In this document: piece by piece, positions 3,709-22,469 of the stretch
Layout: each line of letters opens with the position of its first letter
How positions within the stretch are numbered: position 1 is the stretch's first letter
Virus record (IMG/VR): IMGVR_UViG_3300017773_000157
Location: 1 to 22,621 of that record
DNA from: a virus
Direction: 5' to 3' (one strand)
Length of the DNA stretch: 22,621 bases
The notes under the pieces: model-generated
Database searches by the model: none
What the model saw: the letters and a program-made list of their open reading frames with translations, nothing else
What the model was told of the DNA's origin: nothing
Position numbers and translations under genes: made by a program

Positions 3709-6700
3709 ATGTCAAATAAAGAAATCACAAGAGTTCCCGAGATACTTCCAGATAATTTGGCGGCAGAGTCTGTCGAATTTGTAACATTCCTTAAAAAGTA
3801 TTATGAGTGGTTGGGACAAGAAGGTAATCCTTCACACGACATAGACCGATCACTAACGCAAAGAACTCTTGATAATGCTGTTGACTTTTATCTCACTTCA
3901 TTATATAATGAACTTGGGTATGGGTTTGTTTTAAATAACGACACAAACCAACAAAATATTGTCAATAACCTAGCAGAAATATATTCTGCGAAAGGTTCGT
4001 TACAATCTGTTAAGGTTATGTTCAGGGCATTATTTGGTGAAGAGATTGACATCAAATTACCTAAAGAGCAAATTTTTAAAGCATCTTCTGGTAATTGGCT
4101 CAGTGAATATTCTGTAATTGTAGAGTTAAATGAAGGCGACCTATACAGCGCAGTCGGTAAGTATGTTGAGGTTGAAACTACTTTCCCTAACACCCCCACA
4201 CAAACTTTCGATGTAGAAGTTAAACGTGTAGAGCAAAGAGAGGAGACTTCCGAAGCTCAAGTGTATGAAGTCTATGTTTCACGATACTTTGCTGGTTTCT
4301 TCTATTTTAATAGTGTTTTGAAATATGGTGATGTGCGAGCAACTCTGCAACCATCAATGTCAGAAATACTGAATATTGAAACTGGCGGTACTGGTTTCCG
4401 AGTTGGCGAAACTTTCCCAATCAATGATTATGTTCGGTCAAATGGGTTTAATACGCAAGCGAAGTTACCTACTAACTTTAGACGGAGAGTATATTCTAGG
4501 TCTGGGTTGCGAAGAATTGATATCGAAGATGTTGATACTGATGTACGTTCTGATGGTACGATAACGCAGACTATTAAATTAGGAGATATTGTAACCACTA
4601 GAATTATACGTGGTACAAATTCGATAACTCGTATAGAGCAAGGCGGTCAGGTAAAAGAGTTTAAAGAAACTTTACCAGGAATTCCTACGCCCAATTTGGC
4701 TATTAACTGGGATGCTATAGCGACAGCAATGACCGAACTCGCAGGTTTCGATGGATTAGATGGTACAGTAAGTATTTTCTTATACGATTTCTTAAAAGAA
4801 ACCCCAATCGCAACTTATGTAGACGGTACTACAGACCCATTATTTGATACAACTGGAGGTGCAACTCAATACGCTAGAGGCGATTTCGATAGAGATGGTA
4901 CAGTCTCTATTGACGATGCTACCAGTTTGATAAAATATCTATTTGACATAGACCCAACTCTTCATGCTGGTGATACCGACAGATACGATAGAATAACAGA
5001 TGTAATTACCGCTTGGAATGCATACACCACAGCTAACGGATTATCAGAGTATGCATTTGCTCTTAGATCTCCGAATACTTCAGGTGATGCTTGGGATCCG
5101 ACGTATTCTATACCCATAGACGTTGGTGTAGATCTTTTAAGATTATCGGTAGATGCAGGTGCATACTCCTTATCAGCGCAAACAGCGCAACTGAATGAGT
5201 TGGCAGGTTCTACGCAATATAAAAAAGGTGACATTGACAATGACGGAACCGTTGATACCGACGACCTTGTAACACTTATTAAATATCAAGACCCAGTTTT
5301 AAGAACTTCTTTAACTGCTAATCAAATTGCTTGGATAACAGAATACCTTGATACTGGTAGTGTGTCAGATTTAGACCTCATGGTCTCTGCGATGGCTCTT
5401 GACTTCCAGACAAACAGAAGAAACCAACTACACGACTTCTTACTTCAAACTGATGGAGATTTTGCTACTGGTCGTGTTCGTGGAGATATTAACCAAAATG
5501 GTAGAATTACTCTTGATGACGTTACACTTCTATTAAGACGTGCTAGTGGTTATTACGACCTATCGAGCGGTGGTATAGAAAAGGTAGAAGTAACAACGCT
5601 GGTGGGTGGGTACAAAGAAGGAACTGGGGCAGTATCATTAAGCAACTCTGGAACTGGTAGTGGTGCCGAGATAAGACCTATAATCAGAAATGGAGTTATC
5701 ACTGAATTTGATACTGTTTCTGCTGGTAAAGGTTTAAGGAAGGCGATTGGGTTAATTCAAGTATTACCCGAATCTCATATAAGCAATGTGCCTGACGGAT
5801 GGAGATCTGTCGCATTCTCTCAAGGTATTTCTTATTACGAAATTGATTTAACTATCGCAAATGGTAAGATTCAAGGTCTTTCAGCTCCAGGGATAATGTA
5901 TAACTTCCCTTCAAACCCACTTGAGGCTATTCAACCTACGTGGGAAGAATCTAGTATAACCCCTGTAATAAATTCAAGTAATGAGATTACTGGGTTTACT
6001 GTCAATGATGGCGGTACTGGTTACGATTCGACTACAGCATCTGTAGTAATAGTAGACGTTGAGGGTGAGGGTGCTGTACTTACTGCTAATCCTGTTTCCG
6101 TCAAAGATGGCGTTATTGATAAAATCAATATTACAGATGGTGGCTCTAATTATACTGATGCTACAATATCCGTAACGATAACAGGCGCAGGCGGTAGTGG
6201 TGCTACGCTAGTTCCAGTTATCGTTAATGGAGTTTTAACTGCTTTAACAATCCAAGATGGCGGTGAAGATTACGACCCTTCAACAAACGGCATTACTATA
6301 ACTGACTCTGGCACTGGAGCTGGGGCAAATATAGGCTCGTTTGAAATAATTGACGGTATAGTTGATTCTATTTCTGCCCCTTCTAATGGCGGTAGTAACT
6401 ATACTTCAAACGTTCGAGCATATATCGAAAGAGGGAACTCAGTATCTGCGACTCCAAAAATTGATACTATAGTTCAAGATGGGGTTATTACTGAAGTAAT
6501 TGTAGATAAACAAGGTATTAATTACCCAAGCACCACGACAGTAGCAAATACTTTCCAAAGGCACGATCCTACACTAAAGGCAAATTTAAATTCTAGTGGC
6601 GGAATTACTAGTATTGTATCCACTGGCGATGACGCAAGTAAATCATTATGCGGTTGGCAGTCTGCCACCATTACTGTAACAGATTTAGCTGCAGAAGCAG

Positions 6701-9700
6701 AAACTTCTTCAGGAGCAGGTGATGCTATCGGTGGTACTGGGGCGAGTATCACTGTAGATATTGATGATGGTAAGATCTCTGGGTTCGTCATTGGTGCGGC
6801 AGGTAGCGGATATATTGAGCCTCAAGTTACAATAACTGGCACAAGACTCAACTCTACAATTGTAGCGAACACCACTCCAGATTATGTTGAATGGATTGAC
6901 GAGGTTATTGGCGAACCTTTATTAGGTAGTGTATACAACCCACTTCTCGTGGATGGACCTGGAACTGGGGGGAGTGCTCGTGTAACTCGAGTCGGGTCAA
7001 ATGGCGAATTGCAAGAATTAAAACTAACCAGCTTTGGATATAATTACCCAGATGTTTTCACAACTACCATAGTTCCTGAAGATTCGTCGGGTGCTAATGC
7101 CAAGGTCACTTTTAGATCTGGCGTTGTTGGGATTACTTCTCCAAATTATGTTGACCGCAAAGGTTTCCTATCTGATATCATTAAGATACAAGATAATGAC
7201 TTGTATCAAGAGTTCTCATATGTTGTAGAAACTGGTATCGACTTTGATATATTCGAAGACTTAATTAAGAAGTCTGTTCACCCTGCAGGTATGAAGATAT
7301 TTGGCGAACAAAGTATCAATAGTCAGTTTAGTATAGAAGTACAACAATTCAATGTTGCAAGTACATATTATAATCGTTATTTCGCAGACGCTACAGATAA
7401 TGGTGAAATCTTAGGTGGTGATGGTACTTCAACTAGGAATACTGATGGCGATATCTATCATATGGATAAGGATCTTCCTAGAGTAGAAGACCCTACTTCT
7501 GAGACTATAGACCCTGTATCTGAGAAAGAAACCTACCAGATAGATAAGGATATGACTTCTTTTGGTAATCCGCAATATGTACAGATAGCTGATGCTGAAG
7601 ATGTAAAAGAAACATATCAGTTAGATAAGGATATGACCGCTACTGGTAATGCTCATTATGTTCAGATTGCAGATGCTGAAGATTTAAAAGAAACATATTC
7701 AATGGATAAGGATATTCCTAGACAAGAAGATCCTGAATCAGAAACCATTGATCCTGTGTCTGAGAAAGAAACATATTCAATGGATAAGGATATTCCTAGA
7801 GTAGAAGATCCTACTTCTGAGACTATAGACCCTGTATCTGAGAAAGAAACATATGCTCTAAGCAAAGGGTTAATTGTAGATGTAAAAAACGCATTTGCTC
7901 TGAAAGAAACATATTCTCTAAGCAAAGGGTTAATTGTAGATATACCAGATGCATTCGATCTCAAAGAAACATACCAGTTTGATAAGGATCTTCCTAGAGT
8001 AGAAGACCCTACTTCTGAGACTATAGACCCTGTATCTGAGAAAGAAACGTTCTTACTAGCAAAACTTCAATTTGATTCTATTACTCAGACTGCTGATGGT
8101 GATGCTGACGATTTCTCATTATCTAAACCTTTGTCTGATTCTTTAATTCAAATAAGATCTGGCGATGATGACGATTTCTCATTATCTAAACCACTTTCTG
8201 ATATACATTATGCGCTTTCATTAGATGATAAAACTGTAGAAAAAGATTTGCCAGCTGCAGATGACCCAACTGACGATACTACAGATACAACAGATTCTGA
8301 CAATTATTCTATACTAAAAGATTTCCCACCAGCTGATGATCTTACTGACGATACCGTAGATCTATCTGAAGATGATTCTGATACAAAACTATTTTTGAAA
8401 GGTTTAGATGACGAGACTCAAAATGTTGCAGGTGGGGATGAATCATCATTCCTTGTAAGTAAACAATTTTTCGACACTTCTACAACTTCCGATATTTTCT
8501 CGGTCGCAGACGCTGATATTTACCTAATAACTAAAAGTGAAGCCGATGCTATTAGTGCTAATGTTGATGAAGAAACTGATAAGTCTTTTGCTAAACCGTT
8601 TACAGAAAGTATTAATAACCTACTAAGTGATAGAGCTGAAATGGAGTTCTCTATTTCCAAAGGGTCTTTTACAGAAAATATTAATGTTTCTGCAGAAGAA
8701 AATGAAACCGTTACGGTATTAAGAGCCAAAGGGGTTGACACAGATTTCCCAGATGCAGAAGATGCCATACTTGGTAAACAATTATCTAGAGGATTATCCG
8801 ACTCAACTATAGGTTTCTCGACCAATAAAAATAATGATCTGCGTGTCGATCTTGGGGTTTCTTTATCAAGGGGTCTTCAAGATACTCTAACAGACAATGT
8901 TAGTGAAGAAATAGAGCATATAGATTTTAGTAAAGAATTATTCGATACTAATGACTTTGCCAGAAAACCAATAACGATTCATGCGGAGTTTGCTAATTCT
9001 TTTCGGGGTCCAAATTATGATAATGAGGCGGTATTAAGGTTATTAGAAAACCCACAAGATTCTTCTGATGCTGATATCAATCTTGATGAAAATAGCGAAT
9101 TAAATGATACAAATAGAGATAGGTCTCAAGATCCTCGATTACAAGAATATGATTATTGGGATTCTGCAGAATTCCGCACATCATCCAGTTCGAATTATAC
9201 TCGACCATTTTCTAACCCATCTGGTAATTTCAGAGGTGGGCAAGGCAATGGTCTTACTACAGACTATTTCGGCACATCTGGATCGGTCGTGTTGAAATAC
9301 TATGCTGAAGCCGTTCTAGTTGCCTATGTCGGAGACACAATAAAACTTGAATATTCAAAAACAGTTGGAGTTACCAAGCATGATCCAGCTAATGGGTATT
9401 GGCTTAAGACATCTAAAACCACTGATACGACGACTGATAATGTAAGTAGTGGAGTGACTAACCAAGGGATGGTTAACAACGGCACCACCAACTCAGGATA
9501 TACTAATCCTGCAACTAGTAGCGGAACTTTGACATGGGACACTTCTGGGGCTGATGCTGGCAATTATTATTTAATGGGTGGTGGGTTAACTGTAGACGGA
9601 AGCACTGACGCTCAAGATAACTCATGGATTCAAATATTACTTCTAGACCCTTATGATATCAACGAAGATGTAGATATTGCTAAAGGTAAGGCTCTTTCAG

Positions 9701-9969
9701 ATACGCTAGATATAGACCAAGACGAAGAAGAATTTGACTTTTCTTTGTCTAGATCGATTAGTGATTCAGCTTCAGTATCAGATATATTTTCTTTGGCAGA
9801 CGCTGATATTTATAGTATAAATAAAGGTATCCAAGATCAGGTGTCAAACGTTGCTAACAATGACAGCGGATCTGTGGTAAATACGAGATCTTGTATAGAA
9901 CTAGGTTATTTCGCAACAACAGATCTCGACTACGAGTATTCTTCCGAAACGTCGGGAGCAACATTTTAA
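3709..9969 (+). CDS. Giant modular baseplate wedge protein in the gp7 position, 2086 aa
   Basis: The gene follows gp6 directly, as gene 7 does in T4, but T4 gp7 is only 1032 aa. Residues 1-215 (FVTFLKKYYEWLGQEGNP, YSAKGSLQSVKVMFRALFGEE) and residues 1150-1213 (GFLSDIIKIQDNDLYQEFSY; HPAGMKIFGE at 1191-1200) look like the structural core of wedge proteins from marine T4-like phages. Between them lie three dockerin-like calcium loops (391-403, 507-519, 592-604) and a series of about 42-residue GxGY repeats (about 630-1140). Residues 1245-1760 are acidic tandem repeats of the type (Y/F)xxDKD..R.EDP..ETIDPVSEKET and DxFSLSKPLSDS. A globular beta-rich segment (about 1764-1982) interrupts them, and the repeats resume to the end. 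No catalytic motif is seen. The start has no gap from gp6 and a weak ribosome site, suggesting coupling. The gp7 label rests on position and recalled similarity, so a gp7 equivalent is likely but not certain. Confidence 0.68.
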   Translation: MSNKEITRVPEILPDNLAAESVEFVTFLKKYYEWLGQEGNPSHDIDRSLTQRTLDNAVDFYLTSLYNELGYGFVLNNDTNQQNIVNNLAEIYSAKGSLQSVKVMFRALFGEEIDIKLPKEQIFKASSGNWLSEYSVIVELNEGDLYSAVGKYVEVETTFPNTPTQTFDVEVKRVEQREETSEAQVYEVYVSRYFAGFFYFNSVLKYGDVRATLQPSMSEILNIETGGTGFRVGETFPINDYVRSNGFNTQAKLPTNFRRRVYSRSGLRRIDIEDVDTDVRSDGTITQTIKLGDIVTTRIIRGTNSITRIEQGGQVKEFKETLPGIPTPNLAINWDAIATAMTELAGFDGLDGTVSIFLYDFLKETPIATYVDGTTDPLFDTTGGATQYARGDFDRDGTVSIDDATSLIKYLFDIDPTLHAGDTDRYDRITDVITAWNAYTTANGLSEYAFALRSPNTSGDAWDPTYSIPIDVGVDLLRLSVDAGAYSLSAQTAQLNELAGSTQYKKGDIDNDGTVDTDDLVTLIKYQDPVLRTSLTANQIAWITEYLDTGSVSDLDLMVSAMALDFQTNRRNQLHDFLLQTDGDFATGRVRGDINQNGRITLDDVTLLLRRASGYYDLSSGGIEKVEVTTLVGGYKEGTGAVSLSNSGTGSGAEIRPIIRNGVITEFDTVSAGKGLRKAIGLIQVLPESHISNVPDGWRSVAFSQGISYYEIDLTIANGKIQGLSAPGIMYNFPSNPLEAIQPTWEESSITPVINSSNEITGFTVNDGGTGYDSTTASVVIVDVEGEGAVLTANPVSVKDGVIDKINITDGGSNYTDATISVTITGAGGSGATLVPVIVNGVLTALTIQDGGEDYDPSTNGITITDSGTGAGANIGSFEIIDGIVDSISAPSNGGSNYTSNVRAYIERGNSVSATPKIDTIVQDGVITEVIVDKQGINYPSTTTVANTFQRHDPTLKANLNSSGGITSIVSTGDDASKSLCGWQSATITVTDLAAEAETSSGAGDAIGGTGASITVDIDDGKISGFVIGAAGSGYIEPQVTITGTRLNSTIVANTTPDYVEWIDEVIGEPLLGSVYNPLLVDGPGTGGSARVTRVGSNGELQELKLTSFGYNYPDVFTTTIVPEDSSGANAKVTFRSGVVGITSPNYVDRKGFLSDIIKIQDNDLYQEFSYVVETGIDFDIFEDLIKKSVHPAGMKIFGEQSINSQFSIEVQQFNVASTYYNRYFADATDNGEILGGDGTSTRNTDGDIYHMDKDLPRVEDPTSETIDPVSEKETYQIDKDMTSFGNPQYVQIADAEDVKETYQLDKDMTATGNAHYVQIADAEDLKETYSMDKDIPRQEDPESETIDPVSEKETYSMDKDIPRVEDPTSETIDPVSEKETYALSKGLIVDVKNAFALKETYSLSKGLIVDIPDAFDLKETYQFDKDLPRVEDPTSETIDPVSEKETFLLAKLQFDSITQTADGDADDFSLSKPLSDSLIQIRSGDDDDFSLSKPLSDIHYALSLDDKTVEKDLPAADDPTDDTTDTTDSDNYSILKDFPPADDLTDDTVDLSEDDSDTKLFLKGLDDETQNVAGGDESSFLVSKQFFDTSTTSDIFSVADADIYLITKSEADAISANVDEETDKSFAKPFTESINNLLSDRAEMEFSISKGSFTENINVSAEENETVTVLRAKGVDTDFPDAEDAILGKQLSRGLSDSTIGFSTNKNNDLRVDLGVSLSRGLQDTLTDNVSEEIEHIDFSKELFDTNDFARKPITIHAEFANSFRGPNYDNEAVLRLLENPQDSSDADINLDENSELNDTNRDRSQDPRLQEYDYWDSAEFRTSSSSNYTRPFSNPSGNFRGGQGNGLTTDYFGTSGSVVLKYYAEAVLVAYVGDTIKLEYSKTVGVTKHDPANGYWLKTSKTTDTTTDNVSSGVTNQGMVNNGTTNSGYTNPATSSGTLTWDTSGADAGNYYLMGGGLTVDGSTDAQDNSWIQILLLDPYDINEDVDIAKGKALSDTLDIDQDEEEFDFSLSRSISDSASVSDIFSLADADIYSINKGIQDQVSNVANNDSGSVVNTRSCIELGYFATTDLDYEYSSETSGATF
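4690..5570 (+). other. Three dockerin-like (EF-hand Ca-loop) units inside the gp7-position protein
   Basis: Three copies of a loop with D-x-(D/N)-x-(D/N)-G-x-(I/V)-x-x-(D)-D are visible: GDFDRDGTVSIDD (residues 391-403), GDIDNDGTVDTDD (507-519) and GDINQNGRITLDD (592-604). Each is followed by a short hydrophobic helix (ATSLIKYL, LVTLIKY, VTLLLRRA), as in type I dockerins, and each is spaced 85-116 residues from the next. Two are preceded by the same TQY(A/K)(R/K) motif, and two by a matching helix (LYDFLKET, LHDFLLQT). This implies internal duplication. A fourth degenerate loop may be FDGLDGTVS near residue 347. Confidence 0.75.
5940..7140 (+). repeat. GxGY beta-repeat array in the gp7-position protein
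   Basis: A series of about 42-residue units of the form GxIxxxxIxDGG(S/T)(G/N)Yxxxxxxxxxxx(G)xGA. The aromatic turn motif begins at 6013 (GTGY), 6142 (GSNY), 6262 (GEDY), 6391 (GSNY) and 6514 (GINY), giving spacings of 129, 120, 129 and 123 bases, with further copies at about 6805 (GSGY) and 7036 (GYNY). The unit probably forms a small beta-structure that packs as a rod. The same unit occurs in gp8. Confidence 0.72.
7465..7532 (+). repeat. 68-bp repeat, copy A
   Basis: Encodes DKDLPRVEDPTSETIDPVSEKE. Reading base by base, it is identical to copy D (7981-8048) over all 68 positions and differs from copy C at two. Confidence 0.85.
7705..7772 (+). repeat. 68-bp repeat, copy B (diverged)
   Basis: Same unit with several substitutions: it encodes DKDIPRQEDPESETIDPVSEKE. 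It sits next to copy C, separated by an ATATTCAATG spacer. Confidence 0.8.
7783..7850 (+). repeat. 68-bp repeat, copy C
   Basis: Differs from copies A and D at two positions, giving Leu to Ile and one silent GAC to GAT. Same flanking residues KETY(S) as the other copies. Confidence 0.85.
7856..7975 (+). repeat. 60-bp tandem duplication (LSKGLIVD unit)
   Basis: Two adjacent 60-base units, 7856-7915 and 7916-7975, each starting with the same 26 bases (CTCTAAGCAAAGGG and on to TTGTAGAT) and each encoding LSKGLIVD...AF.LKETY. They lie between 68-bp copies C and D. Confidence 0.8.
7981..8048 (+). repeat. 68-bp repeat, copy D
   Basis: Exact copy of copy A although 516 bases apart, which implies very recent duplication or gene conversion. 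Confidence 0.85.
9000..9655 (+). other. Globular beta-rich segment inserted in the repeat array, possibly cupredoxin-like
   Basis: Residues about 1764-1982 of the gp7-position protein break the acidic repeats. The part with VLKYYAEAVLVAYVGDTIKLE (about 1861-1881), GYWLKTSKTTD (1896-1906), GVTNQGMVNNGTTNSGY and SGTLTWDTSGADAGNYYLMGG (about 1938-1958) resembles, in order and spacing, cupredoxin-like domains found in marine phage structural proteins. The usual His of HPFYIKT and the Cys/His of the YYQC.H segment are replaced here, so metal binding is doubtful. The fold call is an inference from pattern memory. Confidence 0.4.
9807..9814 (-). promoter_or_regulatory. Possible antisense late promoter, part of a palindrome
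   Basis: TATTTATA on the + strand is TATAAATA on the - strand. Together with the box at 9816-9823 it forms the 17-base perfect palindrome TATTTATAGTATAAATA. Transcription leftwards would run antisense through the end of the 2086-aa gene. It may be chance in AT-rich coding sequence. Confidence 0.3.
9816..9823 (+). promoter_or_regulatory. T4-type late promoter inside the 3' end of the giant gene
   Basis: Exact TATAAATA in the 11-mer AGTATAAATAA, the same 11-mer as the boxes at 1417 and 22457. The expected start is at about 9829, giving a 165-base leader before the 179-aa gene at 9994. Within the host gene the box is read as codons for Ser-Ile-Asn. Confidence 0.65.
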
Positions 9970-12273: not shown

Positions 12274-15200
12274 ATGGCGATTACCAACAATTATAACACA
12301 GAGCCGTATTATGACGACTTTAACCCTGATGATGATAAGAATTTTCATAGGATTCTTTTCCGCCCAGGAGTTTCGGTTCAGGCTCGTGAGCTGACACAGC
12401 TACAAACTATTCTACAAAATCAAATAGCAAGACATGGAGAACACTTTTTTAAAGAAGGTGCTGCAGTCACTGGTGCTGAATTTGGATTTACTAATAAGTT
12501 CCATGCGGTTAAACTGAACCCTACAAATGGAACTCAATCGGTAGAAACATACCTTGACGAATTACTAGACCTAGTAGTGCGTGGTTCTAAGAGCGGTATT
12601 GAAGCTAGGATTGTTCACGTAGAGCCTGCAACAGCTGTTGACCCGACAACTATCTATGTAAACTACGTCGGCAGCGGTATCGATGGTAAAAGTTACTCTT
12701 TCCAAGATGACGAATCTTTACTTTGGCAAAGAACTGACGAAGATATTGCTGCAAATACAATTGATATTAGCGGTATTGCTGAAGGGAATCCTCTAGCGGT
12801 AACGATACCTTCAAATGCGACTTCGGATGGATCTTCTGCGTCTATAGAAAGCGGTGTAATCTTTGCGAAGGGTAATTTTGTTTATATAGAAAAACAAAGA
12901 ATTATTTTATCGAAATACACTAGCGACCCAACAGCGAGAATAGGGTTAGAGATATCAGAATCTACAGTTTCCGCTGATGAAGATCAGAGTCTGCTTGACA
13001 CTGCTCTTAATGCCCCAAACTATGCTGCACGTGGTGCAGACCGATACGTTATCGAATTAAAACTGGTATCTAAACCAGTTACAGATACAACATCGGATAA
13101 CTTCATAGAACTACAGCGTGTAGCTGGTGGTTTACAGCAGGCAAAAGCTAAGACATCGGAGTATGATGTTCTTGGGGATAATCTAGCCAGACGTACACAT
13201 GACGAGTCAGGCGATTATACAATTAAACCTTATGAATTACAACTAAAAGAAACCCTTGATGACGGCATTAATCAGGGAGTTTATTCAGCAGGAACTACTA
13301 CTGATTCTGGCGAGTTAGCTTCTAACGATTCTATGACTTTACAAGTTTCTTCTGGTAAGTCATATGTAAAAGGATTCGAGCTGACTACTACTGCTCCATC
13401 TTTCCTCGACATACCAAAACCAAGAACCTTTGAGAGTATTGAAGACGCAACTACAGTTGTTCAGGTTGGTAACTATGTAGAATTATCTAATGTTAGTGGT
13501 ATGCCTGAAACCGTTGGCGACACGACTATCAACGAATACGAACTTATAGAATTGAAGAAAGAAGTCAGTGGCAGTTCTTCAGAAACTATTGGCGTAGCAC
13601 GTGCTAGAGACTTTATAACTTCGGCAGCACTAGATACAGACAGCAACGATATCCTAGACGCTAATGCTCAATTTAATTGCTACTTATTTGACATCAAGAT
13701 GTTTTCTAAAATTAATATTAGCGTTACAGCCTTTCAAGCTGCTGCTGTTGCTCAGGGAACGCTAATAACTGGTGAAACGTCAGGTGCTACTGCATATATC
13801 CATAGCACTGATGCTACTGGTATCTATGTAACTTCTGTATCGGGCAACTTCTTCCCGACTGAAAAGTTAATATCATCTAACAGCTTCGAAACTAATGGCT
13901 ATTTGGTAGAAAACGCAGATACAACCGATCACCTTACTGTTTCGAGTGTTACATCTTTCGCTTTTGAAAATGTTAAGAGTCTATTCCAAGCTGATGCAGT
14001 TCATGATTTTGAAGGTGATGTAGTTCTGGATAACCTATTTACCCTTGATGGATCGGTTACTGTTCATAGCGCAACCGTCACAGGTTTCAGCACTAATTTC
14101 TTGTCTCAGTTACAAGTTGGGGATGCTTTACTATTGCCTAGTGGTTCAAATCAGGCATTAGAAACAAGATATGTTGCCTCTATAACAAACAATAATTCGC
14201 TGACTTTAAATGCTCATGTTAGCAATAATCTAACAGTAGCAGTTCCCTTAATAAGGATACGTGCTGGTCTTAAAGATCAAGAGAAAAACTTGATGCTTCG
14301 CTTGTTAGACAAGCCTTTTGTAAAGACCCTCAAGACCACAGTTAATAATTTCCAGCCAGAGAACGATGTTGTTGTTTCTAGACAATTCCAAGGACAAGTC
14401 GGGGCTAGTGGTTTAGCACTAACAGGCGCAACTGGAGATCAATTCAAAGCTAAGTCCAATGTTAATTATCAGGTTACTGTCTTATCTCAAGGTACTGCTT
14501 CTATACCAGATGGGTCTTTAATGGATGTAGAAGAGCTAACATTTAGCGGAGAAGGAACTAATCAGGTTACTATTTCTGGAGGTGGTTTAGCTGCCAACTC
14601 CGTGATACGAGTCAATGCTTGTTTACAGAAACAATCACAAAAAGAAAAATCTAAGTCTCTACAGAAATCTGCTTTATTGCGGGTTTCAAATAAGTCTGCT
14701 CAAAATTCTGGTAACCTACCTTATGGTACTTCTGCTCACCACAAAGAGATTTCTCTTGGCGTTGCTGACATTTATAAAGTAGTTGCCATTTATGATTCTG
14801 GTACTCCTGGAACTGACGCATCTCCGCCTTCAGTAGCGGTAAGTTCTACTGTTGGATCTTTTTCTAGGAACGAACAAATAAGGGGATCTGAATCTGGTGC
14901 TCTCGGTCTTGTTTTGACTATTGGTAATACTGTTGAATTTGTTTCCCTAAATGGATTAAATTTCCAAATTGGAGAAACTATCACTGGTCAAACTACAAGT
15001 TCTACTGCCGTTGTTCAAACTGTGGCAGTAGGGAGCAGGAATATTACTAACAGGTTTAAGTATGATACTGGTCAGCGTGATAACTACTATGACATCGGTA
15101 AACTAATTCTTAAGAACGGACAGCGTGGTCCTGAGGGTGATTTATATGTAATCTACGATTACTTTACTCATGGATTTGGTAATTTCTTCACTGTTGATTC

Positions 15201-18200
15201 ATATGTAGATATTCATTATAAAGATATACCAGCTTACACTTCTACACGTATTGACCCCGAAAGTCCAATGCCCACAGGTATATTTGATCTAAGGTCTTCA
15301 TTAGACTTTAGACCTAGAGTAGCCAATGCTGCTGCTACTATTACCAATGATGTTCGAGTTGTAACAGGTTATTCTTTCAATATCAATAGCAGAAACTTCT
15401 CTCCAGATTCTAATAGCGGTGCTTCTACTGTTAATACAGTAAGAGATAATTCCAACTTCAATTTCGATTATGAATATTATCTTGCTAGAAGAGATTCTGT
15501 TTACCTAACGACTGATGGCGAGTTTGTAGTAATACAAGGTAACGATAGCGAAAACCCAAAATACCCCGATACTGTCGATAATGCTATGAGGTTGGCTGAT
15601 ATAAGCATGCCTCCATATGTTGCTGATGTCCGTGATGTTTCTATTAAGACTTTCAGTAATAAACGATTTACTATGAAGGATATTAGTACATTAGAGAAAA
15701 GAATCAATAATATTGAATATTATACTTCTTTGAATCTTCTAGAAGTTTCAGCTAACACCCTTCAAGTCAAAGACGAAAATGGGTTAGATCGATTTAAATC
15801 TGGTTTCTTGGTTGATAACTTTGGTGGTCATAAAACTGGTGATGTCCTTCACCCAGACTATCGTTGCGCTATCGACATGTATAAGCGTATTCTTCGTCCA
15901 AAATATGTTATGAAGAATATTACATTAGAAGAAAAGGCGGTAACTGACGATGAAAGGTTATCAGCTGGGTATGTTGTTACAAATGGCGATCTCGCTATGT
16001 TGCCATATACTCACGTAACTTCTATCGAACAAAAGTTTGCTTCTACTATTGAGAACCTAAACCCTGTCTTAAACTTCGGTTGGACTGGTACTATGACCTT
16101 GTCGCCATCTTCGGACGAGTGGTTCGAGATAAACAGACTACCTGACCTAACAGTAAATGTTGAGGGTAATTTCGATACATTGATTGCTCAAAATGCTGAT
16201 GCGCTTGGAACTGTATGGGACGCAGCGACTACTAACTGGACTGGTATTACGACTACAGATTTAGTTGGTCCCAGAATCAGAGAAAATACTGGTAACTTCC
16301 GAGCCGATTTCGTAAGGGGCTTCGGTCGTCGTGTTCTTCAACAGCAACAAGAGACTGAGCTTGGTGTACAAACCAGAAACGGCATCGAAACAAACGTTAT
16401 TGAACAAGTCGATATCACCTCTAATGGCGATCAGCTAAGAAGTACTGCAATCATACCATACATGAGACAAAAAGAAATTACGTTTGAAGGTAATGGCTTA
16501 AGACCTCATACTCAAGTTTATCCTTTCTTTGATAATGTGGATGTATCAGATTACTGTATTAGAACTTCTGGTGCTATCGCCCCTAAACCTGGAGCAACAG
16601 TAACTAGAACTCAAGAAGTAACTCCTGCTTTTAATACTGTTAGAAGAGTATTAATATCTTTTGACAAGAACAATAATCTAAGAAATAGAATCAGCTTGGC
16701 TAGAAACATACAAGGTAAGTTGAACGGATCGTACTCTACAGTTGCTTCTGTATTGACTAGTGCTAGAAACACTACTGACCGTGATGTTATGGAGTTTCTG
16801 TTTGATGCTAATTCAGACTTAGAACCAAACGAGTTTGGGGAATTGTTCTTAGCATTTACCTTTTCTCATGAGGATAACAGAGCATTTAACAAGTGGTTCC
16901 AATTATCGGAAATACAATTCTTTAACGAGAACTATAGCGAAAACCCGAACTTGTCTTCAGGTAATCCACCCCCAGAGGGTTTCCCTCATACTAGCGTTGA
17001 AAGCTGGAACCTTTACAACTCATTAATCGACAGCACTCAATTTGCAGAAGTTGTTAAATTCAACAATATGAAAAATGTCGAGAACCTTGTTGATGGTGGT
17101 GCTCAACTTGCAGGTTACTTAATCGACGGCATCAACTATCGATCCGATCATAGTGGTTATTCTGAGGCTCAAATTGTAAAAGGCGTTAAAAAAGCTGATT
17201 GTATTGTCAAACTTCGTGGTGGAGTTCGTACAGTAGATTACGTGGAAAACCTAGAAAGATTTATCAGTAATGACGATATTGATCCAAAAGCACTAATGAC
17301 AGATGCTTCTGGTCACATTTCTGGTATATTCCAAATACCAGATCCAAACGTTGTGGGTAATCCTCAATTTAGAACAGGCACAAGACTACTCAGGTTGACT
17401 TCGAGTGATGTCAATACTAAAGAACTTGTAGATACATTTGCTCAATCTAACTATACTGCTTCTGGTATATTGAATACTGTACAGGAGACATTTACTGCTA
17501 CTCGTAACGGTCGTGTTGAGACTAGACAAGTTCAAGAAAATACAGAGGTGAGTAGATCGAGGGATTTAGGTCTTGTTCAGGTTGGTTGGTATGACCCTCT
17601 TGCTCAATCTATTATGCCTTCAGTTCCAGGTGGAGAATTTATTACTAAGATCGATGTATTCTTCTCATCTAAAGATGAATCTGCTCCTGTAACTATTCAG
17701 CTGCGAGAAATGGAAAACGGTTTACCTACTCGAAATGTATTACCACATGGTTCTAAAACCTTATATCCAGACAATGTAGTGACTTCTCAGGTTGGCGCCA
17801 ACGCAACGACATTTGAGTTTGATTCTCCTGTTTATGTGAAAGAAAACCAAGAGATCTGTATAGTATTAATGACCGACTCTATCGGTTATACTGCTTGGAT
17901 CTCAAGACTTGGTGACAAAGACATAAATGGCGTTGATGATATATCTGAGCAACCTTACTTGGGTGTTCTATTTAAATCTCAGAACAACTCTACTTGGACA
18001 GCTTACGATTACGAAGACCTCAAATTCACAGTTTATCGTGCTGAATTTGATACTGGTGTTAATGGTGTAGTAACTTTAGAAAATCAAGAGATTCCTGATA
18101 AACTTCTAGAGTCTAACCCTGTGGTAGCAGATGCGTCTAGTAGTATCCTCCGTATCAATCATAAAAATCATCAGATGTATTCTGGCGTAACTGGTCAAGA

Positions 18201-19443
18201 AGATTTAGTAAAAATCTCTGGTGTGTCTTCTGGTATATCTGGAGAGTTGAAAACATCTATTACGGATAGCGCAACTTCTTTTGTAATTGAAAACGTTACA
18301 AACGCAATGCCTACAAGCGGTCAGCATTATTTTGCTATAAGGTCTACTTTCCGAGGAGAATATCAAGACGAGATTATTCTGGGTACTGTTTCTGAATCTG
18401 GGGGCGATTATACTGTTAGTTCTTTAACTAGGGGTATAGGCGGTTCTCCAATAAGCCCGCACACTGGTAATGAGTTTGATACTGCTAATAATTCTACTGT
18501 CTCAGCCACTGTTGACTTGTATGAAGTAAACGGTATTTCTCTAGCAGATATAAACCGAATTCATGAAGTTCAAGATTTTGGTTTTGATCATTATACGATA
18601 GATATCAGTAATAATGCTATAACTTCCGACGTTACAGCTACCGCTGACTCAATATTTGGCGGAGACTATGTGTATGCTTCTGAGAATATACTTGTAGATG
18701 CGTATCAGTTGATGTTGCCTACGGTATCTTATCCTAAAACGAATATTTCTACTCGTATAAAATTTGCTACTGGTTCTTCTTTGTCAGGCAATCAGATACC
18801 ATTTGTAGATAAAGGGTATGGTAAAACTGAATTAGTAGATCGTGTCGAATTTACGACGCCTAGATTAATTGCTTCGCAGGTTAATGAAACTGAACATATG
18901 GGCGGTAATAAATCTTCTTCGGTAGAAGTTACATTATCTACTCAAGCGTCTAACTTAACTCCGATACTAGATCTAGAACGTAAATCTATTACAGCTTATG
19001 GTAACCGAGTAGATAACATATCAACTTCTAGCGATGTCGATAGTACAAGTACATTTATACCAGCTACTGCCCCTGAAGGGGATAGTTCTGAGTCGGTTTA
19101 CATAACTAAGCGTGTTCAGTTGAAGAACCCAGCAACTTCTATTAAGGTATTGTTCGATGCTGTTGTAAACTCTAGTGCTTCGGTAGAGGTAATGTATAAA
19201 GTTCTAAGATCTGACGACTCGTCAGACTTCGACGAATTAGGTTGGAATTACTTCAATACAGCAGGGGAAACTGATACTCCAGTAACTTCTGCAGTAGATA
19301 GAACTTCTTTCAAGGAACATGAATATACAGAGAACGATATACCTGAATTTATCTCTTTCTCAATTAAGATTAAGATGAAAGGTGTTAACTCTTCTGAGCC
19401 ACCATTATTAAAAGACTTAAGAGCAATAGCATTGGCAGTATAA
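12274..19443 (+). CDS. Giant DUF4815-type virion structural protein, 2389 aa
   Basis: The N-terminal segment YYDDFNPDDDKNFHRILF (residues 12-29) and PGVSVQARELTQLQTILQNQ (31-50) is the signature of the DUF4815 family, large tail-associated proteins common in marine T4-like phages. Further family-like blocks are SGKSYVKGFEL with PKPRTFES (about 364-390), DLRSSLDFRPRV (about 1006-1017), a helix with LEKRINNIEYYTSLNLLE (about 1138-1155), and GWYDPLAQSIMPSVPGGEF (about 1771-1789) before a beta-rich C-terminus ending LKDLRAIALAV. The central part has GETSGATAY-like repeats (TGETSGATAYIHS; GSESGALGLVLT; TITGQTTSSTAVVQT) that look like short beta-turn units. No enzyme motif is seen. Position after gp8 matches that of the T4 gp9/gp10/gp11/gp12 genes, so it may carry tail-pin or fibre functions; this is not shown. 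A GGAGAG ribosome site lies 7 bases before the ATG; the ATG at 12267 is out of frame and likely unused. Confidence 0.82.
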   Translation: MAITNNYNTEPYYDDFNPDDDKNFHRILFRPGVSVQARELTQLQTILQNQIARHGEHFFKEGAAVTGAEFGFTNKFHAVKLNPTNGTQSVETYLDELLDLVVRGSKSGIEARIVHVEPATAVDPTTIYVNYVGSGIDGKSYSFQDDESLLWQRTDEDIAANTIDISGIAEGNPLAVTIPSNATSDGSSASIESGVIFAKGNFVYIEKQRIILSKYTSDPTARIGLEISESTVSADEDQSLLDTALNAPNYAARGADRYVIELKLVSKPVTDTTSDNFIELQRVAGGLQQAKAKTSEYDVLGDNLARRTHDESGDYTIKPYELQLKETLDDGINQGVYSAGTTTDSGELASNDSMTLQVSSGKSYVKGFELTTTAPSFLDIPKPRTFESIEDATTVVQVGNYVELSNVSGMPETVGDTTINEYELIELKKEVSGSSSETIGVARARDFITSAALDTDSNDILDANAQFNCYLFDIKMFSKINISVTAFQAAAVAQGTLITGETSGATAYIHSTDATGIYVTSVSGNFFPTEKLISSNSFETNGYLVENADTTDHLTVSSVTSFAFENVKSLFQADAVHDFEGDVVLDNLFTLDGSVTVHSATVTGFSTNFLSQLQVGDALLLPSGSNQALETRYVASITNNNSLTLNAHVSNNLTVAVPLIRIRAGLKDQEKNLMLRLLDKPFVKTLKTTVNNFQPENDVVVSRQFQGQVGASGLALTGATGDQFKAKSNVNYQVTVLSQGTASIPDGSLMDVEELTFSGEGTNQVTISGGGLAANSVIRVNACLQKQSQKEKSKSLQKSALLRVSNKSAQNSGNLPYGTSAHHKEISLGVADIYKVVAIYDSGTPGTDASPPSVAVSSTVGSFSRNEQIRGSESGALGLVLTIGNTVEFVSLNGLNFQIGETITGQTTSSTAVVQTVAVGSRNITNRFKYDTGQRDNYYDIGKLILKNGQRGPEGDLYVIYDYFTHGFGNFFTVDSYVDIHYKDIPAYTSTRIDPESPMPTGIFDLRSSLDFRPRVANAAATITNDVRVVTGYSFNINSRNFSPDSNSGASTVNTVRDNSNFNFDYEYYLARRDSVYLTTDGEFVVIQGNDSENPKYPDTVDNAMRLADISMPPYVADVRDVSIKTFSNKRFTMKDISTLEKRINNIEYYTSLNLLEVSANTLQVKDENGLDRFKSGFLVDNFGGHKTGDVLHPDYRCAIDMYKRILRPKYVMKNITLEEKAVTDDERLSAGYVVTNGDLAMLPYTHVTSIEQKFASTIENLNPVLNFGWTGTMTLSPSSDEWFEINRLPDLTVNVEGNFDTLIAQNADALGTVWDAATTNWTGITTTDLVGPRIRENTGNFRADFVRGFGRRVLQQQQETELGVQTRNGIETNVIEQVDITSNGDQLRSTAIIPYMRQKEITFEGNGLRPHTQVYPFFDNVDVSDYCIRTSGAIAPKPGATVTRTQEVTPAFNTVRRVLISFDKNNNLRNRISLARNIQGKLNGSYSTVASVLTSARNTTDRDVMEFLFDANSDLEPNEFGELFLAFTFSHEDNRAFNKWFQLSEIQFFNENYSENPNLSSGNPPPEGFPHTSVESWNLYNSLIDSTQFAEVVKFNNMKNVENLVDGGAQLAGYLIDGINYRSDHSGYSEAQIVKGVKKADCIVKLRGGVRTVDYVENLERFISNDDIDPKALMTDASGHISGIFQIPDPNVVGNPQFRTGTRLLRLTSSDVNTKELVDTFAQSNYTASGILNTVQETFTATRNGRVETRQVQENTEVSRSRDLGLVQVGWYDPLAQSIMPSVPGGEFITKIDVFFSSKDESAPVTIQLREMENGLPTRNVLPHGSKTLYPDNVVTSQVGANATTFEFDSPVYVKENQEICIVLMTDSIGYTAWISRLGDKDINGVDDISEQPYLGVLFKSQNNSTWTAYDYEDLKFTVYRAEFDTGVNGVVTLENQEIPDKLLESNPVVADASSSILRINHKNHQMYSGVTGQEDLVKISGVSSGISGELKTSITDSATSFVIENVTNAMPTSGQHYFAIRSTFRGEYQDEIILGTVSESGGDYTVSSLTRGIGGSPISPHTGNEFDTANNSTVSATVDLYEVNGISLADINRIHEVQDFGFDHYTIDISNNAITSDVTATADSIFGGDYVYASENILVDAYQLMLPTVSYPKTNISTRIKFATGSSLSGNQIPFVDKGYGKTELVDRVEFTTPRLIASQVNETEHMGGNKSSSVEVTLSTQASNLTPILDLERKSITAYGNRVDNISTSSDVDSTSTFIPATAPEGDSSESVYITKRVQLKNPATSIKVLFDAVVNSSASVEVMYKVLRSDDSSDFDELGWNYFNTAGETDTPVTSAVDRTSFKEHEYTENDIPEFISFSIKIKMKGVNSSEPPLLKDLRAIALAV

Positions 19444-19685: not shown

Positions 19686-22469
19686 ATGGCGAACATTAAT
19701 TTAAGGGGCACATTGGCATCAGGTACTACTCTTACCTTTGCTCAGGTCGACGATAACTTCACAAATTTGAATAACGAATCTTTTTATGGCGGGATTACCT
19801 TTAATGGCGGTACACTATCCTTTACCCCTATTGGTCACGCAGGCGATTCAAACGCATACCCCGATGTAACCCTGAACCTAGACGATAGATATGTCGATAT
19901 TCTTAGCGATTTATCGCAGAAAAATATTATAAAGAACATCTATGACTCTGAAGAAGACGTCTTACGTTCTTCTGACAGCGGTTGGTCGGTATTTAATAGC
20001 AAAATACATGTTGATAACAGCGCAAGTTTAGCTATTAATTCTAATTTCTATACCCCTGATATAGATTTATCAGATTACCTGCCAACCACACCTCTCAAAG
20101 TGCCGATAACTGATTCTACTTTTAACCGCAATCTGCATTGGAGGAATAGAGTACAAACTACTGACTATCCCGATGTTGCATTCAGTAATAATGCTGACAC
20201 AATCATAATATCAGACCTTTCTAAATGGGACAAAATTACTGGGACTGATACCGATAGCTATACTCAAAGAGGTTCTAGTCTAACCCCATATTATGTCGCC
20301 TTTGCAGCTTCTATGATTAATTTGGACCAAGACCTAGTTGGTACAAGAGTAGATGTAAACGGTTGGGAGGGGTATCCTTCGGGGCATAGAAGAGGAACTA
20401 TCTCGTCTATTTCTATATCTACAGTAACCGAAGATAGCAATGTAGTAGTAGATGAAGTTGAAATTGATGTTAATTGGGACACTTCCGAGGATGTGGGGGA
20501 TCCAAGTTCGGTATCAGCAAACGATTACATAGAACAAATAAAATTCCATGGTTTATTAAAATCTCCAAGAACTCCGATAGTGGCGCCAAGAGAAGGAAGT
20601 ATAGGAATCTGGCAAGAAACTTCTTTTGCTAGGTTATTGGCACCTAATCATAGCTTGGCTGCAGATCATTCAGACCTTACATTCAGGTATGCTGATCAAG
20701 ATAATTTATTGTGTTCGGGCTTAACAAGTCAATCTGATATTGAAATAGCACCCTTATCTTCTTTTGGTGGCGATTCCGTTAGCACTCAAGGCGTTAATGG
20801 TGCTCAATGGGAATCGGATCCAGGTGTTTCTCCGGATGATCTAATAAGGACATCTAGCTATACACTAAATGGCGGTGATGTTTTTATTGGCGGTGGAGAT
20901 CACACTCAAGGAAATTCCTCCAAAGGCGGTGATATAGTTTTAAGGAGCGGTCTTAGAAAAGGAACAGGTGAGGGTGGTTTACAGAACGATCATAACCACA
21001 TAGCTAGAAATGCTCCAGCAAACCTAACCGATAACACTTCTGCTAGGACAGAAATATCAATAATGGGTTACTCAATGTATGATGATACTGTCATTCGTAG
21101 TCCCAACGGTCAGGGCAGGTTGTCTTCCCCATCAAATGGTCAAAAAGAGATTCATGATCATGTAGGGATTAGATTATTCGCTGGTACGAACTACAGTGCA
21201 ACTAATAATGATACAAATCAAAGAGATGGTAGAGACATCGTTATTATGCCAGGAGGTGGTGTGAACTCTGGTACTCCTGGATCTCTAAGAGTTGTATTGT
21301 CTGGTGTCCCCTATACTAATCGGTTAGTCGAAGGACAGAATTCGTATGACTCGAATCTACAAGATACTCAGGAGCTGAATGAAACTGTAGTTCCCATTTC
21401 TATAGATTGGGAGACTGACGGTACTAGAGGGGATTACTTTTTTGATGGCTACGGGAATGGCGGTCATTCGGGATATAATATAAATCTTGGGTTCAGTACT
21501 GATTATACAAAGCTGAATATCGGCTCTAGAATTACGCAAATGAACGACAGTACTATGGTACAAGAACCATCAACGTTTGCTTATTCTAGAGTTATGAGTG
21601 ATCGTTCTACATGGTTTAATACTGATGGATTCCTTTATCAGAGATCCAACGCAAACCAAGATGATATTGATGTTTTTAACGGATTTGCATCTGGAACTAC
21701 AGGGATCACGGATAACGTTCTCAGGAACATGGCGTATTACTTGAGTGATAAGGATAATTATCAAGATTCCGTAGGGTATGAAGGTTATGTCAGCGATTCG
21801 AATCCATTTAATACTGACTTTATATTCAATACTATTCTTTCGTATGCAGGATCTACGGTTGATGTTGAAAGGAGTTTTGCGGGTGAAGAAAGGATGGGCG
21901 GTGACAGCTTTTTCTTCGGTAATGTCAGGAAAAACGTACAAGATCAAATAAGTGATACTGATGGCGATTATACAACAGAAAACAACTATTTAGGTTGCGG
22001 TGTTTTAGTTGATGGTTCTGAGTTGAATTTGTTTAGTAATCCAATACAGAATAATTCTGGTTTAACTAAAGTGAATGTAAAAGCTGAATCAGTTGATATT
22101 GATGGAGCAACAGATATTGCTGGCGACCTTACGGTCACAGGACAGATAACTGCAACTGGGGATATTACCGCATTCTCTGATGAGAGTATTAAAGAAAACG
22201 TTGAAGTAATCGAAGATGCAGTAGATAAAGTACAGCAACTTAATGGTTACACGTTTGATCGTACTGATATCGAAACTTCAAGACAAACTGGTGTTATCGC
22301 ACAGGAAGTTCTTAAGGTATTACCAGAAGCTGTCGGCGAATCAGACGGCAAACATACTGTCGCTAATGGTAACATGGTTGGTCTATTAATCGAAGCAATT
22401 AAAGAGCAGCAAGGTCAAATTGATTCTCTAAAAGAAGAATTACAATCAATTAAAAGTATAAATAAGTAA
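19686..22469 (+). CDS. Tail fibre protein with C-terminal S74 intramolecular chaperone
   Basis: A 927-residue protein. Its N-terminus (NINLRGTLASGTTLTFAQVD followed by DNFTNLNNE) resembles the virion-attachment ends of marine phage fibres. The middle is a long beta-rich, Gly/Asn-rich body (for example GGDVFIGGGDHTQGNSSKGG) consistent with a fibre shaft and receptor-binding tip. Residues 829-927 form a peptidase S74 / endosialidase-type chaperone: SDESIKENVEVIEDAVDKVQ, then GYTFDR, GVIAQEVLKVLPEAV and a terminal helix VGLLIEAIKEQQGQIDSLKE. In this family a Ser and a Lys five residues later form the self-cleavage dyad, here Ser831 and Lys836, so release of a 97-residue C-terminal piece is predicted. 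The CAGGG at 19672-19676 is the ribosome site. It is likely the host-recognition protein of the segment; its receptor is unknown. Confidence 0.88.
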   Translation: MANINLRGTLASGTTLTFAQVDDNFTNLNNESFYGGITFNGGTLSFTPIGHAGDSNAYPDVTLNLDDRYVDILSDLSQKNIIKNIYDSEEDVLRSSDSGWSVFNSKIHVDNSASLAINSNFYTPDIDLSDYLPTTPLKVPITDSTFNRNLHWRNRVQTTDYPDVAFSNNADTIIISDLSKWDKITGTDTDSYTQRGSSLTPYYVAFAASMINLDQDLVGTRVDVNGWEGYPSGHRRGTISSISISTVTEDSNVVVDEVEIDVNWDTSEDVGDPSSVSANDYIEQIKFHGLLKSPRTPIVAPREGSIGIWQETSFARLLAPNHSLAADHSDLTFRYADQDNLLCSGLTSQSDIEIAPLSSFGGDSVSTQGVNGAQWESDPGVSPDDLIRTSSYTLNGGDVFIGGGDHTQGNSSKGGDIVLRSGLRKGTGEGGLQNDHNHIARNAPANLTDNTSARTEISIMGYSMYDDTVIRSPNGQGRLSSPSNGQKEIHDHVGIRLFAGTNYSATNNDTNQRDGRDIVIMPGGGVNSGTPGSLRVVLSGVPYTNRLVEGQNSYDSNLQDTQELNETVVPISIDWETDGTRGDYFFDGYGNGGHSGYNINLGFSTDYTKLNIGSRITQMNDSTMVQEPSTFAYSRVMSDRSTWFNTDGFLYQRSNANQDDIDVFNGFASGTTGITDNVLRNMAYYLSDKDNYQDSVGYEGYVSDSNPFNTDFIFNTILSYAGSTVDVERSFAGEERMGGDSFFFGNVRKNVQDQISDTDGDYTTENNYLGCGVLVDGSELNLFSNPIQNNSGLTKVNVKAESVDIDGATDIAGDLTVTGQITATGDITAFSDESIKENVEVIEDAVDKVQQLNGYTFDRTDIETSRQTGVIAQEVLKVLPEAVGESDGKHTVANGNMVGLLIEAIKEQQGQIDSLKEELQSIKSINK
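22176..22466 (+). other. S74 self-cleaving chaperone domain of the tail fibre
   Basis: Encodes residues 831-927. Ser831 (SDESIK) and Lys836 fit the family's Ser-Lys dyad; GVIAQEV and LPEAV are conserved family blocks, and the C-terminal helix likely trimerises. Cleavage before Ser831 is expected once the fibre trimer has folded. Confidence 0.8.
22457..22464 (+). promoter_or_regulatory. T4-type late promoter at the 3' end of the fibre gene
   Basis: Exact TATAAATA in AGTATAAATAA, overlapping the last codons (Ser-Ile-Asn-Lys) of the fibre gene. The expected start at about 22470 gives a 24-base leader for the next gene, whose ribosome site (AAGGAT) lies at 22485-22490. Confidence 0.7.

Follow-up and report, generated by a model that had tools for sequence, protein, structure and literature searches.

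Dockerin-like loops in a predicted gp7-type baseplate wedge protein and a related module that may circulate among phage virion proteins

The window, by which we mean the whole 22,621-nucleotide stretch of DNA analysed, carries baseplate genes in the order PAAR, gp25-like, gp6-like, a long open reading frame (ORF 3709–9969), a 179-aa protein and gp8-like. The long frame lies between gp6 and gp8, the position of the gp7 gene, and comparison with the gene orders of T4 (PAAR, 6, 7, 8) and of Melnitz and Mosig (25, 6, then an unnamed protein) assigned it to the gp7 place; the arrangement PAAR–(gp25)–gp6–gp7–gp8 is the one found for T4 gp7 and the Kyanoviridae wedge proteins at this position (PF23786). 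The Pfam Baseplate_wedge profile (PF23786) matched its product with 36.3 bits (cut-off 27). A six-row profile of the N-terminal region aligned in hhalign with residues 652–773 of T4 gp7 over 116 columns (E 3.9e-4, probability 35%), the two having the motif YSxKG...F..L..EE..I in common, and the Kyanoviridae homologues at the gp7 position share both the N- and the C-terminal core with the window protein. The gp6 neighbour is ~33% identical to proteins of Kyanoviridae (Methylophilales, Synechococcus and Pelagibacter phages), which suggests that the window comes from an aquatic T4-like phage; judged solely by these nearest named relatives, the origin may be sea water. Farther along, the window encodes a 2389-aa protein of the baseplate/fibre region with a DUF4815 domain (201 bits) and without a dockerin loop (12274–19443), and a 927-aa tail fibre with a C-terminal Peptidase_S74 self-cleaving chaperone domain (19686–22469). 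The wedge gene and its parts are the following.

3709..9969, + strand: predicted gp7-position baseplate wedge protein of 2086 aa, in which the dockerin-like block lies (from gene order, PF23786 and the T4 gp7 alignment)
3709..4428, + strand: N-terminal core (aa 1–240), common to dockerin-free gp7 homologues
4690..5613, + strand: dockerin-like block (aa 328–635), kept in five species and missing from most gp7 homologues
4882..4917, + strand: loop 1, DFDRDGTVSIDD (aa 392–403), near-canonical in L052 and lost in L053
4972..5025, + strand: a degenerate stretch around DTDRYDRITDVITAWNAY that may be the partner half of unit 1, as read from the sequence
5215..5412, + strand: loop 2 and following helices (aa 503–568), superposing weakly on whole dockerins (VIA-align 2)
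5230..5265, + strand: loop 2, DIDNDGTVDTDD (aa 508–519), ligand residues invariant in five species
5485..5520, + strand: loop 3, DINQNGRITLDD (aa 593–604), positions 3 and 5 varying among D, N, T and S, positions 1, 6 and 12 invariant
5614..6879, + strand: GxGY-type repeat region (aa 636–1057)
6880..7311, + strand: C-terminal core (aa 1058–1201), common to other gp7 homologues

The C-terminal ~850 residues of the protein (window 7312–9966) are mostly made up of short acidic repeats (KETYxxDKDM...), and in the DNA units of 81, 78 and 60 bases are tandemly repeated at window positions 7525–7973. Repeat tails of this kind are also found in L004 and BUCT-ZZ01, and L004 and L005 differ in how many repeats they have.

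A sequence-only reading of the window had noticed three D-x-D-x-D-G...D-D loops in the gp7-position protein, spaced by 85–116 residues and placed between the conserved N-terminal core and the GxGY-type repeats. The loops are indeed present, in the form D-x-[DN]-x-[DN]-G...DD, at residues 392, 508 and 593 of ORF 3709–9969, with measured spacings of 116 and 85, and the block has the position stated. In shuffles of the same protein a strict form of the loop pattern had a mean count of 0.00045, and none of 20,000 shuffles contained it three times. The same reading had proposed duplication inside the gene from two sets of flanking motifs, which fared differently. With the loops masked, the similarity of units 1 and 2 (TQYxxGD...) was reached by 5 of 1000 shuffles, that of units 2 and 3 was weak (29 of 1000), and that of units 1 and 3 (DFLK/LLQT) was not significant (272 of 1000). 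Duplication thus has support in units 1 and 2, while its extension to unit 3 is uncertain.

The blocks of two groups of close relatives (L002/L003 and L004–L008, ~77% identical in the N-terminal core) contain all three loops, and two further species (L051/L052 and L053/L054, 55–59% identical in the N-terminal core) were found with the segment around loop 3. We computed conservation of the block over five species, comprising 15 loops in all. Identity to the window ranged from 35 to 63% in the block, from 55 to 85% in the N-terminal core and from 58 to 83% in the C-terminal core. Within the block, every one of the 15 loops has Asp-1 and Asp-12, all ligands of loop 2 are kept in all species, and in loops 2 and 3 taken together 8 of the 10 ligand/Gly columns are invariant in comparison with 46 of 241 in the rest of the block (Fisher p 9e-5). 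Loop 3 varies at position 3 (N/T/D) and position 5 (N/T/S/D), L002 having no Asp at either, and loop 1 reads DANGDSRVSSFD in L052 and DATAGGLINWWD in L053. Its loss in L053 indicates that loop 1 is dispensable and, with the missing Asp-3 and Asp-5 in loop 3 of L002, that not every site is needed. In the putative partner half of unit 1, R-I-T and WNAY near DTDRYDRITDVITAWNAY are kept in three species. The losses would also suit vestigial or fortuitous Asp-rich turns that bind no metal; we consider this highly improbable, as the ligand positions are invariant in a block of 35–63% identity, the triple pattern never arose in the shuffles, and both the Dockerin_1 profile and dockerin sequences of the PDB give matches (see below).

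Outside the five species, most gp7 homologues lack the block. In an outlying clade (L075/L076 and L071–L074, ~37% N-core identity) a single loop is found at the corresponding place, GDINHDGIIDLDDL and GDINHDNAIGLDDV, of which the latter was missed by the loop pattern and seen by eye. No loop was present in ~60 other gp7-like loci (L098 excepted), some of which end at a contig edge, or in four cultured-phage homologues, and the gp7-position homologues of BUCT-ZZ01, pf16, Melnitz and Mosig lack the block. The comparison of homologues proposed in the earlier reading gave this distribution: block in five species, one loop in the outlying clade and none in most gp7 homologues. Searches with tblastn using the block or single loops found no relative among 50,697 cultured phages, where the low-complexity filter may hide short Asp-rich queries, and two scans of 84,980 bacterial and archaeal genomes found none either. 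The sole yield of one search of the cultured phages was unrelated capsid stretches at E 0.3.

This distribution bears on the idea that the block is a constitutive structural element of the wedge, in which Ca2+ (or Mg2+) stabilises the loops from the outset and the loops have no role after release. The strong conservation of loop 2 together with the RNxLHxxLLQ / VR[GA]DI segment around it, and the retention of one loop at the corresponding place in the outlying clade, would fit such an element. Its dispensability in most gp7 homologues and its divergence, faster than that of both cores, speak against it, and we regard it as unlikely, if the least so of the alternatives.

Profile searches associate the block with dockerins, known as connectors of cellulosomes. 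The anticipated match to Dockerin_1 (PF00404) was obtained with 24.7 bits for the whole protein and 34.1 bits for a fragment (cut-off 22.9). EF-hand_1 (PF00036) matched less well, with 27.5 bits for the fragment and 16.7 for the whole protein (cut-off 25.4). The blocks of L002, L052 and L053 were also above the Dockerin_1 cut-off, that of L004 just under it (21.3 bits), and a six-frame Dockerin_1 search matched a single place, under the cut-off (18.3 bits). When a five-row profile of the loop 2–3 region was compared with the PDB, the five best sequences were dockerins (4fl4, E 1e-4; 2y3n, E 2.2e-4), and loops 2 and 3 aligned to both dockerin loops of 4fl4, 2y3n and 2ccl. The dockerin-like reading of the block is thus supported at the sequence level. 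Cellulosomal type I dockerins (PF00404) have the same 12-residue loop, D-x-[DN]-x-[DN]-G-x-[IV]-[DST]-x-x-D, followed by a helix, but carry two loops in ~60 residues, whereas the window block spreads three canonical loops over ~215 residues and sits inside a phage virion protein. By this spacing the block is not a canonical dockerin: a compact ~60-residue pair of canonical Ca-loop/helix segments is absent, the canonical loops being 116 and 85 residues apart.

The Dockerin_1 and PDB matches could still mean that the units are true dockerins, docking onto a cohesin carried by their own virion or by the surface of the host. Cohesin (PF00963), however, gave no match in four related, possibly incomplete phage contigs, one of them the 120-kb relative, while a control genome scored above the cut-off; a cohesin of the host may still exist. 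The missing cohesin in the 120-kb relative and the loop spacing of 85–116 residues in place of a compact pair argue against docking of the cellulosome type, and we hold true dockerins to be quite improbable.

AlphaFold2 models were poor overall, with a mean pLDDT of 38.6 for the full block (three rows) and 49.1 for loops 2–3 (five rows), rising to 67–78 in the part with loop 2 and its following helices, and Foldseek with the low-confidence model returned no significant fold. In a second look with VIA-align 2, the six best matches were dockerins, 6kge_B first (rmsd 3.0, 60/60 residues) at a low Z of 3.9. The superposition covers approximately model residues 38–106, which correspond to residues 503–571 of the window protein, and hints that loop 2 and a degenerate second half may form one dockerin-like unit, with a Z too low to claim the fold.

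One of the gp7-like loci extends the picture beyond the wedge. The 2084-aa gp7-like protein of L098 includes a segment of ~90 residues containing RKLGDIDNSGTLTSAD, which is cleanly missing from L105, a collinear protein with 44% identity over 1932 aligned residues. When this segment and its relatives were used as queries, scans identified further copies of a mobile module of ~90 residues with the signature EP..TLFN....GRKLGDI[DN]N.G in other uncultured phages, in the following places.

L127:2322-3254, L128:1911-2843, L132:5421-6470, L139, L140 and L141: inserted in SU10-type adaptors (PF24175)
L124:2920-4695, L125, L133, L134 and L136: near the C-terminus of head-closure Hc3/Phage_stabilise proteins (PF11134/phrog_578)
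L126: in a gpJ-like central tail fibre
L127, L129 and L142: C-terminal to phrog_28581 proteins
L128:5521-6672 and L143:5485-6789: two tandem copies in a small virion-like protein starting with MLGFSPLAGA and ending in a repetitive P-S-Q-T tail

The adaptors show that the insertion is clean: HTVC027P gp66 and HTVC023P gp56 of Pelagibacter phages (216 and 220 aa) have no module and align on both sides of it in the 310-aa adaptors of L127 and L128. Several contigs hold more than one copy. On the L098 contig (49,711 bases), a second copy lies at the contig edge (positions 5–172) in a different, 1510-aa open frame. The other ORFs of the window contain no module, and queries of 88–93 aa found no member among the 50,697 cultured phages; nor was a member found in the 84,980 bacterial and archaeal genomes. 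A protein family of reference phages, phrog_19101 (595 aa), is similar in length to the Hc3 carriers, and its match in L133 and L136 covers the module region; reference phages may thus hold related insertions. The module family scores below the Pfam cut-off, which makes it invisible to current annotation.

The relationship of the mobile module to the window block is less direct. In the window, matches to the module profile were confined to the three loops, with 25–45 residues each (21.8, 13.5 and 12.0 bits), and in L053 the match spanned 43 residues (30.1 bits); most full-length members score 69–149 bits, and no full-length match was obtained in the window. Direct cross-matches between module and window extend over ~25 residues, mostly the loop. 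Any homology between the two would be carried by about 25–45 residues, and these partial matches make the window block a relative or a parallel case and not a proven member.

The following account of the block, from metal binding and fold to exposure on the virion surface, timing and function, is what we infer. Most likely a single Ca2+ is bound in each canonical loop, where it would lock the neighbouring helices together as one compact unit. Because phage wedges are built in the cytoplasm of the host, at very low free Ca2+, most of these sites would be filled only once lysis has released the particle into water rich in calcium. The inserted domain would then become stiffer and act as an outward spacer, a stabiliser or a docking surface on the wedge. 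The occurrence of related modules in unrelated virion proteins suggests a swappable decoration domain and not a component of the wedge machinery, with a role perhaps comparable to that of phage Ig-like domains. We lean, with some reserve, towards this reading as a whole: dockerin-type loop–helix units in a gp7-type wedge, whose loops bind Ca2+ and stiffen after lysis, forming a swappable decoration domain. In T4, gp7 is a monomer present in six copies, with three linked domains of which one swivels by ~45 degrees at the baseplate switch (PMC3004832), and a calcium-stiffened insert in a protein of this type could affect the switch, the stability or the contacts of the baseplate.

Our literature search found nothing on dockerins in phage baseplates. 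Dockerin similarity has been mentioned singly for the tailspike-like Gp02 (PMC5967307) and for VvAW1 gene 40 (PMC3558961), in neither case analysed as a module. The phage lysin LysGH15 (PMC4022735) resembles the window block in having an EF-hand-type calcium site; that site lies in the catalytic domain of a lysin, whereas the window loops are in a structural baseplate protein. Phage Ig-like decoration domains (e.g., T4 Hoc; PMC10385173) are, like the module, small, present or absent among members of a family, carried by unrelated virion proteins and sometimes tandem, but they are beta sandwiches, whereas the module is predicted to be helical and of the loop–metal type.

Wider and more interesting than the block itself is the finding of a related module that moves between virion proteins of unrelated families. 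We see evenly balanced grounds for and against a broader picture in which calcium-locked dockerin-type modules circulate in wedge, connector, adaptor and tail-tip proteins, several per genome, as an environment-triggered counterpart of Ig-like domains, the window showing the most elaborate form with three loops in one wedge protein. If true, this would be a second mobile virion domain besides the Ig-like folds, and a calcium-locked relative of dockerins as a swappable part of the phage particle would directly link the calcium of the surrounding water to the mechanical state of the virion.
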